A DNA stretch of 64,000 nucleotides from Arachidicoccus sp. BS20. Its GTDB lineage: Bacteria; Bacteroidota; Bacteroidia; Chitinophagales; Chitinophagaceae. Shown piece after piece: positions 59,671 through 64,000 of this stretch. Location of the stretch: the NCBI RefSeq assembly GCF_001659705.1, contig NZ_CP015971.1, positions 1,364,001 to 1,428,000 on the forward strand, given 5' to 3'. A program made the position numbers and the translations under genes. A model generated the notes under the pieces. It ran no database searches. It saw only the letters and a list, made by a program, of their open reading frames with translations, and was not told where the DNA came from. How positions within the stretch are numbered: the stretch's first letter is position 1; each line of letters begins with the position of its first letter.

Positions 59671-59678
59671 TATCTTTG
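59671..59678 (+). promoter_or_regulatory. Promoter of the fluoride operon
   Basis: TATCTTTG is a full match to the Bacteroidota -7 element. Transcription would begin near 59684-59686, at the very 5' edge of the riboswitch aptamer. Confidence 0.75.
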
Positions 59679-59686
59679 CATCGCAA

Positions 59687-59737
59687 AAGGAAATGGTGTC
59701 TTCCTTCTCCAACCGCTAAAAGCTGATGGCGCCTACA
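59687..59737 (+). promoter_or_regulatory. Fluoride riboswitch (crcB motif)
   Basis: The sequence fits the fluoride aptamer in detail. P1 is AAGGAA (59687-59692) with TTCCTT (59701-59706). The pseudoknot is GGTGTC (59695-59700) with GGCGCC (59728-59733), all six positions pairing with two G-U pairs. P2 is GCT (59715-59717) with AGC (59721-59723). The conserved ATGG, AACCGC, GCTGATGGCGCCTAC segments are all present. The genes behind it are fluoride exporters, which confirms the call. Confidence 0.95.
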
Positions 59738-59749
59738 AATTTATTAACC

Positions 59750-59776
59750 GTGTTGTAAAAACACATAATTTTTATT
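59750..59776 (+). terminator. Candidate expression-platform terminator of the fluoride riboswitch
   Basis: GTGTT (59750-59754) pairs with AACAC (59760-59764), followed by an AT-rich tail with TTTTT. It lies 13 bases after the aptamer. The stem is short, so control might instead act on the translation start at 59787. Confidence 0.45.
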
Positions 59777-59786
59777 TGTAGGATTC

Positions 59787-61142
59787 ATGAAAAAAATCAG
59801 GACTTCTTTCGAACATTTTTTTATCACAAAACATTTATTGAAGTGGGCAATTATTTCAATTCCCGTAGCAGCAGTTATAGGCTCCATAGTCGCATTGTTT
59901 TTATGGCTACTGGAACGTGCAACTGAAATACGCTGGCAACATTCGTGGTTATTGTTCCTGTTGCCGCTGGCAGGTATTTTCATTTATTTTTCTTACAAAT
60001 GGTCGGGCAAAAATGCGGAAGGCGGCAATAATTTAATTGTAGATGAAATTCACAAACCTGGTGGCGGCGTACCTTTCCGCATGGCGCCATTGGTGTTGGC
60101 AACTACTGTGATTACGCATTTTTTCGGTGGTTCCGCAGGCAGAGAAGGCACGGCAATTCAAATCGGCGGAAGCATCGCAAGTTTTTTTGCCAGAAAATTC
60201 AATCTGTCAAAAGACGATATTCGCATTCTGCTAATGATGGGAATCGCCGCAGGTTTCGGTTCTGTTTTCGGCACGCCGCTCACAGGCGCAATATTCGCAT
60301 TGGAAGTATTAACCGTTGGAAAAATTAATCACAATGCCCTGCTGCCATGCCTCATGGCAAGCGTAGTTGCCAACATTGCCTGCAAATCCTGGGGCATCGA
60401 ACATACACAATATGCGATTGCTTTTAAAGACGTTATTAAAGCATTTGGCGTTATACACTTTGATGTATTGTTATTACTCAAAGTAATTCTTGGCGGCGTA
60501 TGTTTCGGGCTTGCGGGATATTTGTTTTCCGAACTTTCCCACACCATAAAAAATTATAGCAACAAGCTGATTAAAATAAAATGGCTGATACCTTTTACCG
60601 GCGGCTGCATCATTATTGCACTGACTTACATTTTGGGAACAGATAGTTATTTGGGACTTGGTGTAACAAATCTGAATCCCAATTCAGTAAGCATTGCTAC
60701 TTGTTTTACCACAGGCGGCGCGGGCTATTTCAGTTGGTTTTGGAAATTGCTATTTACGGCAATCACGTTAAGCATGGGCTTCAAAGGCGGCGAAGTAACA
60801 CCATTGTTTTTCATTGGGGCGGCATTGGGAAATGCTGTTGCACAAGTTACAGGCGCACCTGTCGATTTAATGGCAGGACTTGGTTTTATCGCTGTGTTTG
60901 CCGGCGCTACCAATACACCGGTTGCGTGTACAATTATGGGCGTAGAACTTTTCGGCGGTGAATATCTCATTTATTTTGCGATTGCCTGCTTTACTGCATA
61001 TTATTTCAGCGGACATACAGGCATCTACGGCACACAAAGAATAGGTGCGCCTAAAGCCCAAGATTTACTACACCATAATAATAAAACATTGCACGAAGTA
61101 AGAGATAAACGAATTAATAACAAGAAAAATGGAACATTCTAA
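59787..61142 (+). CDS. CLC-family transporter, fluoride/proton antiporter (CLC-F) type
   Basis: The 451-residue protein has about ten or more membrane helices. It has the CLC motif [14 protein letters not shown] with gating Glu120, a second box [19 protein letters not shown] and [18 protein letters not shown]. Where most chloride-type CLCs have GSGIP, it has GGNNLI, as expected for the divergent CLC-F clade. Together with the riboswitch and CrcB this makes it a fluoride exporter with good confidence. Its end overlaps the DUF190 gene by 14 bases. Confidence 0.93.
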
Positions 61143-61581: not shown

Positions 61582-61950
61582 ATGAAACCGATTTTATTTG
61601 TTGGACTTGGCGGAGCAATCGGCAGTATATGCCGGTATTTGGCACAAGTGGGCATCAGTAAAATAATTGCGCTGACGTTTCCGCTCGGTACATTTATTGT
61701 AAATATTGCAGGATGCTTTATCATCGGTTTATTGTATGGCTTAGCTACACGACAAGCATGGTTTACTGCCGAATGGAGATTGTTCTTAATTACCGGAATT
61801 TGCGGCGGATTTACTACATTTTCGAGTTACTCATACGAAAGTGTCAGCCTGATGAATCAGGGCAATTATTTATACTTCGTTTTATATGCGGGGTGTAGCG
61901 TAATACTTGGATTTTTGGCTACATGGTGCGGCACATTATTATTTAAATAA
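61582..61950 (+). CDS. crcB: Fluoride channel CrcB/FluC
   Basis: FluC proteins are dual-topology dimeric fluoride channels. The 122-residue protein has four helices with GLGGAIGSICRYL, PLGTFIVNIAGCFIIG (conserved Asn in the pore) and GICGGFTTFSSYSYES (the Phe-box and polar track). The cell thus has both a channel and an antiporter under the same riboswitch. In the 81 bases before it a short repeat-like stretch (TTTCTCACAGAGAATACAAA and ACTCTGTGTGAAAT) forms a small inverted repeat. Confidence 0.96.
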   Translation: MKPILFVGLGGAIGSICRYLAQVGISKIIALTFPLGTFIVNIAGCFIIGLLYGLATRQAWFTAEWRLFLITGICGGFTTFSSYSYESVSLMNQGNYLYFVLYAGCSVILGFLATWCGTLLFK

Positions 61951-61962
61951 AACTGTTGCAAT

Positions 61963-62409
61963 ATGGATACGATATTCAATAAAATATTAATCGCGGTTGA
62001 TGACAGTGCATTTTCGATGAAAGCTGCACACACAGGCTTTGCCATTGTTCATGCAACAAAAGCAGCCGTTGCACTTGTATATGTGATTGACCAATCCAAA
62101 GAAGTCGTCAATGCCGATTTGGGCATCACGCCTGAGCAAAGCCAATCTGCTTTACTGAACGAAGCCGAAAGAACGATACAGCAATACATTCAACTATACG
62201 ACGGCGAAGACGAAGTGTTGCGCTTTACGCCCACAGGCATTCCCGAAGAAGAAATCATCAATATTGCCAACCAGTGGGAAGCCGATTTAATTGTGATGGG
62301 AACACACGGGCGCACAGCAATCGGACGAATATTAAGCGGCTCAAAAGCCGAGTATGTTGTTCGCCATGCAACAGTTCCCGTGCTGCTGACGCCGCCAAGG
62401 ATGCAATAA
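61963..62409 (+). CDS. Universal stress protein UspA family
   Basis: The 148-residue single-domain protein has the ATP-binding signature GTHGRTAIGRILSGSKAEYV (G-x2-G-x9-G-S type). UspA proteins are often found in fluoride-riboswitch operons. Its exact role there is not known. It starts 12 bases after crcB. Confidence 0.92.
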   Translation: MDTIFNKILIAVDDSAFSMKAAHTGFAIVHATKAAVALVYVIDQSKEVVNADLGITPEQSQSALLNEAERTIQQYIQLYDGEDEVLRFTPTGIPEEEIINIANQWEADLIVMGTHGRTAIGRILSGSKAEYVVRHATVPVLLTPPRMQ

Positions 62410-62507
62410 ATTTAAAAAAAGGTAATGGCATTCTACCTTATCAACCGCCTTTAAGAAGGACGATGATGCCTGTAAAAATTAATCAAAAAGATTAATCATT
62501 TATAGGT

Positions 62508-63707
62508 ATGGATATCAACAAAAAGAAAGCTACCACATTTGTAATCCTGCTTGGCTGCATCAGCCTGTTTGCCGATATGACTTACGAATCGGCGCGAAGT
62601 ATTAACGGACAATATCTTGAAGTGCTTGGCACGTCAGGAACAACCGTAGGTTGGGTTGCCGGTTTAGGCGAATTGCTTGGTTATGGTTTAAGAATTGTTT
62701 CCGGTTACTTCGCCGACAAGACAAAAAAATATTGGCTTATTGCCATTTCGGGTTATATCATCAATTTACTTTCCGTGCCGTTGCTTGCGTTAGCTGGTTA
62801 TTGGCAACTCGCCGTTGTTTTAATGATTTTGGAAAGAATAGGCAAAGCCCTGCGCACGCCTTCGCGCGATGCAATGCTGTCGTTCGGCGCAAGCCAAATG
62901 GGCAGCGGCTGGGGCTTTGGCTTGCACGAAGCAATGGACCAAACAGGCGCCACAGTTGGACCATTGCTGATTGCTTTGGCGTTGTATGCACACAACAATA
63001 ACTACAAAATTGCTTACGCTTTTTTGGCAATTCCCGCAATTATTGCTATCACTATTTTATTAGTTGCAAGCTCATTATATCCCAATCCTTCCAATCTTGA
63101 AATAAAGAATACAAGTCTTGTTACAAAAGGTTATCCCAAACTTTTTTGGCTCTATATTTTATCGACAGTTTTTATTGCTTTGGGCTACGCCGATTTTCCT
63201 TTAATGGCTTATCATTTCAAAAGTCATTCAATAATGAATGATGAAACCATTCCGATATTTTACGCCATCGCAATGGCTGCCGAAGGACTTGTTGCGCTGT
63301 TGCTGGGCAAATTATTTGACAAGCTGGGCATCACTGTTTTAATTGTTGCAAGCTTTATTGCATTCTTTTTTGCACCGCTTGTTTTTCGCGGCAATTTTTT
63401 CATGGCGCTAATCGGCGTTATTATTTGGGGTATTGGCATGGGCGCGCAGGAATCGGTGATGAAAGCCATTGTTGCAGAAATGCTTCCAGCACAAAATCGC
63501 GGCAAAGGCTTCGGATTGTTCAACACGGCATTCGGCACTTTTTGGTTTACGGGAAGTTTTATCATGGGTCGGCTGTACGACATTTCTATCAACAGATTAA
63601 TCCTTTTTTCGGTCATTACGCAATTAATCGCCGTTATCCTCTTAGTGTTTCTTATTGACGGCAAGGCATTGAAAATATTGAAGGTAAAACAGAACATACA
63701 TACTTAA
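62508..63707 (+). CDS. MFS transporter of the fluoride operon
   Basis: The 399-residue protein has 12 predicted transmembrane helices in two bundles and the loop YFADKTKKY after helix 2, typical of the major facilitator family. A second feature is the conserved-looking LGASRS-free SRDAMLSFGASQMGSGWGFG region. It is related to MFS proteins reported in other fluoride operons by context, but the substrate is not known. It may export fluoride-linked metabolites or import protective solutes (inference). Confidence 0.88.
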   Translation: MDINKKKATTFVILLGCISLFADMTYESARSINGQYLEVLGTSGTTVGWVAGLGELLGYGLRIVSGYFADKTKKYWLIAISGYIINLLSVPLLALAGYWQLAVVLMILERIGKALRTPSRDAMLSFGASQMGSGWGFGLHEAMDQTGATVGPLLIALALYAHNNNYKIAYAFLAIPAIIAITILLVASSLYPNPSNLEIKNTSLVTKGYPKLFWLYILSTVFIALGYADFPLMAYHFKSHSIMNDETIPIFYAIAMAAEGLVALLLGKLFDKLGITVLIVASFIAFFFAPLVFRGNFFMALIGVIIWGIGMGAQESVMKAIVAEMLPAQNRGKGFGLFNTAFGTFWFTGSFIMGRLYDISINRLILFSVITQLIAVILLVFLIDGKALKILKVKQNIHT

Positions 63708-63740
63708 CAAAACAAATTTTAAATCAAAATAAGTCACAAA

Positions 63741-64000
63741 ATGAAGATTACAAAAATCCATGCGAGAGAAGTACTCGATTCAAGAGGCAACCCAACGGTT
63801 GAAGCGGAAGTAAATATTGAAGGCAGCTTCAACGGCGATTCGTCTATCGTTCGCAATGTAAAAGGCAGAGCCATTGTACCGTCGGGCGCAAGCACGGGCG
63901 AAAGAGAAGCCGTTGAACTGCGCGACGGCGACAAGAAACGTTACAATGGCAAAGGCGTTTTAAAAGCGGTAAGCAACGTGAACGACATTATTGCAAAAGC
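63741..64000 (+). CDS. eno: Enolase, N-terminal part, with an unusual insertion
   Basis: The gene runs off the right edge; 86 residues are visible. The N-terminus [20 protein letters not shown] and the catalytic loop [19 protein letters not shown] leave no doubt about enolase. Compared with E. coli enolase there are 10 extra residues between the EG of strand 2 and the PSGAST loop ([12 protein letters not shown] region). Enolase is the main target of fluoride. Its place 33 bases behind the MFS gene at the end of a fluoride operon suggests a fluoride-responsive, possibly fluoride-tolerant form. Confidence 0.95.

Follow-up and report, generated by a model that had tools for sequence, protein, structure and literature searches.

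Fluoride riboswitches have previously been linked to crcB, CLC-F, enolase, pyrophosphatase and mutS genes (PMC11139923, PMC2864571; here and below, a cited paper stands for the excerpts of it on which this account draws), and two types of bacterial fluoride exporter are named in a review (PMC11139923). The six-gene, riboswitch-led operon of Enterobacter cloacae FRM (ppaC, uspA, eno, gpmA, crcB and orf5249) has also been studied (PMC5533749), uspA being the gene for the universal stress protein. In this work we analyze a 64,000-nucleotide stretch of the Arachidicoccus sp. BS20 genome (contig NZ_CP015971.1, positions 1,364,001 to 1,428,000, hereafter referred to as the window), for which a first-pass annotation had proposed a fluoride-response operon headed by a riboswitch and had treated the links of such riboswitches to crcB, CLC-F, enolase and uspA as known. 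The locus is very probably a long fluoride-defence operon with one promoter box, in which translation would be controlled by two fluoride riboswitches, RS1 before the gene for the CLC-F exporter and RS2 before a gene for a transporter of the major facilitator superfamily (MFS). The elements of this putative control are as follows.

59671 to 59678, forward strand: Bacteroidota-type promoter box TATCTTTG, a match to the pattern TAnnTTTG.
59680 to 59742, forward strand: RS1, fluoride riboswitch aptamer (RF01734, 51.4 bits, E 2.5e-11).
59732 to 59740, forward strand: 5' strand of the predicted RS1 off-state helix, CCTACAAAT, overlapping the aptamer 3' end.
59774 to 59782, forward strand: 3' strand of the predicted RS1 off-state helix, ATTTGTAGG, 4 nucleotides before the CLC-F start codon (p 0.000, 200 shuffles; present in the minimum-energy fold).
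62412 to 62479, forward strand: RS2, fluoride riboswitch aptamer inside the operon (RF01734, 43.7 bits, E 8e-9).
62468 to 62476, forward strand: 5' strand of the predicted RS2 off-state helix, GCCTGTAAA (62466 to 62476 in the minimum-energy fold).
62499 to 62507, forward strand: 3' strand of the predicted RS2 off-state helix, TTTATAGGT, ending at the MFS start codon (62499 to 62509 in the minimum-energy fold; p 0.025, 200 shuffles).

Both aptamers score above the Rfam gathering score of 34 bits for RF01734. The first-pass annotation had described a promoter box running into a fluoride aptamer with a six-pair pseudoknot, and the box, the Rfam match and all six pairs of the RS1 pseudoknot (GGTGTC with GGCGCC) bear this description out. 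Its picture of one riboswitch heading one unit does not hold, however: a single-riboswitch operon had to be rejected given two Rfam matches in the window, the second of which, RS2, fills the space between the uspA stop (62409) and the MFS start (62508) and has its own predicted start-codon-blocking helix. A scan of the whole genome (3.49 Mb, one contig) with Rfam found no fluoride riboswitch besides RS1 and RS2, and in the window no other Rfam family reaches its threshold. The RS2 pseudoknot also forms six of six pairs (GGCATT with GATGCC), and since these differ in base from those of RS1, the aptamer has changed while its fold has been kept. From these features we infer that both RS1 and RS2 bind fluoride.

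In each riboswitch the aptamer's 3' end can pair with bases just 5' of the following start codon (CCUACAAAU/AUUUGUAGG). The significance of this helix was assessed for each riboswitch by comparing the best helix starting at the aptamer CC with those found in 200 dinucleotide shuffles of the downstream 120 nucleotides. Both window hairpins appear in the minimum-energy fold, with z values of −2.88 and −2.84 (3 and 2 of 200 shuffles fold as well), and the RS2 helix there extends to 11 pairs, including two bases of the start codon. A conserved A-U pair is part of the fluoride aptamer in its crystal structure. The helix uses the aptamer CC and U that the pseudoknot and this A-U pair need, so that the two states are mutually exclusive. 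Translation in this phylum starts without Shine-Dalgarno sites and responds to RNA structure close to the start codon (PMC6847099), and therefore a helix ending at the start codon would be a sensible off switch.

To place these helices in context we consider the family to which the genome belongs, the Chitinophagaceae, where a fluoride riboswitch occurs in 85 of 244 genomes at 96 places. The analysis used 85 of these places, from 77 genomes. Of the 11 others, G013 and G119 exceed the cut-off; within the 85, G061:C3 and G187:C49 fall below it. The first gene behind the riboswitch encodes CLC-F in 65 cases, CrcB in 12 and the MFS protein in 4; in the other 4 it matches none of the query proteins. 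The helix test gives p ≤0.05 for 71 of the 85 riboswitches and p ≤0.01 for 50. Among the 71, the helix ends 0–6 nucleotides before an ATG in 61 and contains the ATG in 6, all of them crcB-first units (L046, L047, L048, L053, L054 and L058), where the presence of the start codon within the helix ties the first crcB codons to RNA pairing.

The helix also covaries. When each of the 43 genera is represented by a single sequence, with internal RS2 copies excluded, helix positions 4–7 pair in 98, 98, 95 and 88% of sequences, vs. 81, 69, 62 and 59% after re-dealing the 3' strands, and for positions 4–9 none of 1000 re-dealings reaches the observed pairing. The two-sided exchanges are A-U/G-C, C-G/A-U/U-A and A-U/U-A. 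The helix is thus exclusive with the aptamer, covers the initiation region and covaries, which is the pattern of a translational platform, with the covariation of the RS2 helix coming only through the comparison with Niastella given below.

Read together, these features suggest the following mechanism. Transcription of the whole operon would start from the single box at 59671. When fluoride is low, the final bases of each aptamer would pair just before the next start codon, closing the CLC-F gene behind RS1 and the MFS gene behind RS2, while in the fluoride-bound state the pseudoknot and the conserved A-U pair would occupy those bases, the blocking helix could not form and ribosomes could enter, which is the ON direction that we infer for both switches. 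CLC-F and CrcB would then export fluoride, the enolase, the pyrophosphatase and perhaps the phosphoesterases would serve as extra copies of fluoride-inhibited enzymes, and the MFS transporter would add a further function to the response. RS2 would let the second half of the operon respond independently of ribosomes arriving from upstream.

A different mechanism is suggested by the many fluoride riboswitches that overlap terminators (PMC2864571, PMC13273304), and terminator-type platforms were also the basis of a study of covariation across whole fluoride riboswitches (PMC13273304). Like the crcB switch of Bacillus cereus, the two switches could accordingly control transcription, by means of a terminator or of Rho. 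We looked for terminator control, but there is no U-run after either off-state hairpin, and terminator-like sites are not above the level of shuffles (6 vs. 4.9), with none listed within either leader. The helix moreover sits at the start codon, and contains it in the 6 crcB-first units, so that transcriptional control seems distinctly improbable at this locus.

Among the matches listed for the 244 family genomes, two same-strand riboswitches at most 5 kb apart occur in 4, namely the window genome and three of genus g61 (the Hydrotalea-group genomes of loci L116–L118). In each of the four, some 2.7 kb separate RS1 from RS2, which precedes the MFS gene. Across a sample of the phylum a riboswitch is found in 55 of 395 genomes, and, among the matches listed, such a pair only in the window genome and G314, the second G314 match being below the cut-off. 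The Hydrotalea-group operons (L033, L034 and L035, from the genomes of L118, L116 and L117, respectively) have the same order of CLC-F, DUF190, CrcB, UspA, RS2, MFS and enolase, with proteins like the pyrophosphatase and phosphoesterases of our locus after the enolase. They differ in that their RS2 lacks the blocking helix, in a gene of 139–141 amino acids between the MFS and enolase genes, and, in L034, in a dynamin-like gene that follows.

The array of Niastella vici (L115) resembles the window operon in that RS1 precedes CLC-F, and RS2 follows uspA and is built on an equivalent helix: CCTACAG pairs with CTGTAGG directly before the ATG (p 0.013, 1000 shuffles), around an inner ATTAAT hairpin that resembles that of the window RS2. 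The helix bases have changed on both sides, so that the two genera differ in the outer helix through compensatory exchanges. In contrast to the window, the Niastella RS2 heads a second CLC-like gene (with GREDA for GREGT) and a Na/H exchanger gene before the MFS gene, and a third riboswitch stands further on, before a gene of 194 amino acids and two MutS-like genes (array L115:6992-15650).

The single promoter is suggested by the distribution of the TAnnTTTG box, a consensus that we take to be that of Bacteroidota promoters. Accepting positions from 45 nucleotides upstream to 8 nucleotides inside the aptamer start, the box is found near 59 of the 85 family riboswitches (mean 2.7 and maximum 8 in shuffles), and it accompanies RS1 in 4 of 4 genomes when the window genome and the three Hydrotalea-group genomes are considered. 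TATCTTTG is the sole forward-strand match in 59600–64000, compared with a total of 39 on that strand of the window. In a search for a second promoter serving the MFS half, no TAnnTTTG was found before RS2 in the window genome or in the three Hydrotalea-group genomes. The gene spacing and the absence of a second box point to a single transcript.

It is also important to consider the observations that weigh against an operon with one promoter box and two working translational switches. RS2 has a C at the position equivalent to U38 (we presume the Thermotoga numbering and a conserved role for this position), where RS1 and 82 of the 85 family copies have T, and one of its P3 pairs is broken. Its helix is weaker than that of RS1, at p 0.025, and in the three RS2 copies of the Hydrotalea group the aptamer is retained and the blocking helix absent (p 0.19–0.62). 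More generally, 14 of the 85 family riboswitches miss p 0.05, and the helix lies away from its expected place in 4 of the 71. Helix ends were taken as the best pairing in each sequence, which inflates the raw pairing and is corrected only partly by the shuffles and re-dealings. Finally, sigma-70-like sites number 14 vs. 11.2 expected, so that other promoters are possible.

Some of these points, namely the lower score of RS2, its C at the U38 position, the broken P3 pair and the Hydrotalea-group copies with no blocking helix, would fit RS2 as a decaying leftover of a duplication, with only RS1 at work and the MFS and enolase genes expressed by read-through from the CLC-F end. We consider this unlikely, as all six RS2 pseudoknot pairs have been kept with two-sided base changes relative to RS1, Niastella has RS2, C38 included, at the same place and with matched exchanges in its helix, and the three Hydrotalea-group genomes carry RS2 at a similar distance from RS1. 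The C at the U38-equivalent position was seen in the Niastella vici RS2 (L115:6992-7059) and also in the CLC-F riboswitches of G185 and G114.

With RS2 taken as a probable working switch, we turn to the genes that the two riboswitches would control.

59787 to 61142, forward strand: CLC-F fluoride/proton antiporter, 451 amino acids (Pfam Voltage_CLC; signatures GNNLI, GREGT and GEVTP).
61129 to 61500, forward strand: DUF190 protein, 123 amino acids (Pfam, 44.7 bits, cut-off 23.4).
61582 to 61950, forward strand: CrcB/Fluc fluoride channel, 122 amino acids (Pfam CRCB, 107.1 bits, cut-off 32.9; NCBIfam TIGR00494, 106.3 bits, cut-off 80.45).
61963 to 62409, forward strand: universal stress protein (UspA), 148 amino acids (Pfam Usp).
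62508 to 63707, forward strand: MFS transporter, 399 amino acids, of a fluoride-riboswitch-linked subfamily (Pfam MFS_1 and genomic neighbourhood).
63741 to 64000, forward strand: second-copy enolase (Enolase_N), cut by the window edge; the full gene of 436 amino acids is L003:5242-6552.

The six gene calls of the first-pass annotation are confirmed by Pfam and NCBIfam, and its identification of a fluoride-response operon is well supported by the sequence. The translation of the CLC protein holds all three CLC-F signatures, which are described as GNNLI/GMGLI, GREGT/V and GEVTP (PMC11139923). The small gaps and overlaps that had been reported stand for most neighbouring genes but not for DUF190 and crcB (81 nucleotides) or uspA and MFS (98 nucleotides, filled by RS2). 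The operon had also been taken as complete within the window, whereas the same strand continues past the edge (L003) with the rest of the enolase gene, an inorganic pyrophosphatase, two calcineurin-like phosphoesterases, a NUDIX gene and MutS-like genes. The gap between DUF190 and crcB (61501–61581), which contains an inverted repeat, CTCACAGAG ... CTCTGTGTG, matches two other sites of the genome over short parts of its length. One MutS-like gene (L003:9230-10644; 67729–69143 in window numbering) consists of two overlapping frames of 238 and 246 amino acids, while its Niastella homologue is a single frame of 507 amino acids; it is either a broken gene or an assembly error.

The enolase cannot simply be called the target enzyme, as had been done, for it is a second copy: another enolase, taken to be the housekeeping one, lies at genome position 1125555, and a further pyrophosphatase copy lies at 1027220. 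Given these copies, the operon enolase seems unlikely to serve as the housekeeping enzyme. Identity among eight operon enolases, drawn from four genera, is 66–78% between genera, and their identity to the genome's other enolase is 56–59%. Small proteins are encoded just before the enolase gene in L034 (5252–5671, minus strand, 139 amino acids, Hydrotalea) and in L047 (2319–2774, 151 amino acids, g15), the latter with no Pfam match.

As for the gene set as a whole, which had been described as unusual, the presence of both exporter types is indeed rare across bacteria, with about 3% of strains carrying both at all in one survey (PMC11139923). Comparable sets are nevertheless found in 9 of the 77 family genomes, which have CLC-F and CrcB behind one riboswitch, in the three Hydrotalea-group genomes and in the E. 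cloacae FRM operon.

The MFS protein has MFS_1 as its sole Pfam match, its predicted structure has a mean predicted local distance difference test score of 88.3, the 50 matches listed in a structure search are generic MFS folds at 12–18% identity, and a sequence search of the PDB returns 7 NorA chains (E 0.002–0.004). More can be said from its relatives, of which 481 were confirmed, one genome per species; the best 80, those most like the window protein and from many phyla, were kept as loci of up to 10 kb each side, and consequently the association with riboswitches may be weaker further out. At E 0.001 the genomes of 57 of these 80 have a fluoride riboswitch (29 of 40 and 28 of 40), 54 of them over the cut-off, and 23 have none.

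Riboswitch coordinates were transferred to the MFS loci and then checked by sequence, with matches below the cut-off included; by this procedure 32 of the 80 loci contain a riboswitch (0.57 expected, given the number of riboswitches, the length of the loci and the genome sizes), and 48 have no confirmed one nearby. Placement was stricter than the search, in that L124 (33.6 bits, before crcB, DUF190 and MFS) was dropped, and a direct Rfam scan of 31 of the 80 loci gave no additional riboswitch locus. An alignment by MAFFT misregistered the aptamer stems, and in place of a covariance model a two-part weight matrix tuned to the window's family was used, which gave 40 matches in the 80 loci and 0 in reversed sequences, at least one of the 40 (L180) being in a genome where Rfam finds none.

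A riboswitch stands directly before the MFS gene in 9 of the 80 best relatives, where directly means on the same strand and at most 300 nucleotides from the matched MFS start, an intervening open reading frame being possible in some. These are three Hydrotalea-group genomes, two Moorella (one, L125, below the cut-off at 31.2 bits), one Jordarchaeia archaeon (L146, also below it at 26.7 bits), two proteobacterial metagenome-assembled genomes with identical MFS proteins and one member of the Rokubacteriota. The riboswitch-linked relatives overall span Bacteroidota, Bacillota, Pseudomonadota, Rokubacteriota and the one archaeon. On a maximum-likelihood tree the distinction between a riboswitch directly before the gene and one nearby needs at least 4 gains or losses on supported branches, and its clustering exceeds that of most shuffles (2 of 500 are as low), with 48 rows in neither group. 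Two same-strand riboswitches at most 5 kb apart occur in 17 of the 80 genomes (matches below the cut-off included), which means that multi-switch fluoride arrays often accompany the MFS gene.

Among the neighbours in the 80 loci are universal stress proteins (18), enolase (16), dynamin-like (15), MutS-like (12) and CrcB proteins (12), raw counts with no chance level attached and obtained with queries from the window's family. The dynamin-like GTPase recurs in fluoride clusters, being present in the L034, L047 and L115 operons as well as in those 15 loci, and was checked with Pfam in L115.

An ordinary multidrug or metabolite transporter, placed here by chance, would account for the weak similarity to Tet and NorA exporters, for the generic structure matches, and for the 48 loci with no confirmed riboswitch and the 23 genomes with none at all, three Legionella among them. 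Against such a placement stand the 32 loci with a riboswitch and the 9 direct cases, across several phyla and one archaeon, as well as the enolase and CrcB genes nearby, and we give chance placement only a small likelihood. The MFS protein is most likely part of the fluoride response and is a candidate for a further fluoride-stress transporter. In 37 aligned members (L130, which has a stop codon, was omitted, as were L133, L139, L151, L156 and L175 as a precaution) the invariant charged residues in predicted helices are D23, E27, R30, E55, R62, E109, R110, E141 and D144, which fits an ion- or proton-coupled carrier, with no substrate named by them.

More tentatively, and with somewhat less than an even chance in our estimation, the protein may found a further class of fluoride-defence transporters beside CLC-F and Fluc/FEX, in many bacterial phyla and some archaea. 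Such a transporter might export fluoride by proton coupling, or might move a metabolite or ion that accumulates when enolase and pyrophosphatase are blocked, and its own riboswitch would allow its expression apart from the known exporters. A cautionary case is the benzoate transporter BenE-I, with which Pseudomonas putida tolerates more fluoride although the level of fluoride inside the cell is not lowered (PMC13104614).

With its ties to fluoride riboswitches in several phyla, the MFS family could be a direct route to a third exporter type, or to a molecule whose movement relieves fluoride stress, and is worth testing in fluoride defence. Baker et al. 2012 is said to be the main source for riboswitch-linked genes. 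In the parts of the literature searched no link of this MFS family to fluoride was found, an entry in Baker et al. 2012 being possible. With two predicted switches in what is probably a single messenger, the operon would lend itself naturally to studies of why translational control is installed twice. The covarying helix at the start codon would offer a practical guide for interpreting fluoride riboswitches in this phylum, where initiation does without Shine-Dalgarno sites.

In comparison with the RF01734 family (the crcB motif), both window aptamers are above threshold, with the pseudoknot and the conserved A-U pair, and differ in that there are two per operon, in the C of RS2 at the U38 position and in a predicted start-codon-blocking helix instead of a terminator. 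No operon with two fluoride riboswitches was encountered in the parts of the literature searched, work on contiguous riboswitches included. The operon of E. cloacae FRM is likewise riboswitch-led and joins an exporter and a universal stress protein to an extra enolase and pyrophosphatase, but one riboswitch is reported for it, its pyrophosphatase is Mn-dependent, its response was measured on mRNA, and CLC-F, DUF190 and MFS are not named in the operon as described in the excerpts of that paper (PMC5533749). The window operon is thus one of a known kind in a new arrangement, the novelty of which lies in the internal second riboswitch and the link to the MFS transporter.

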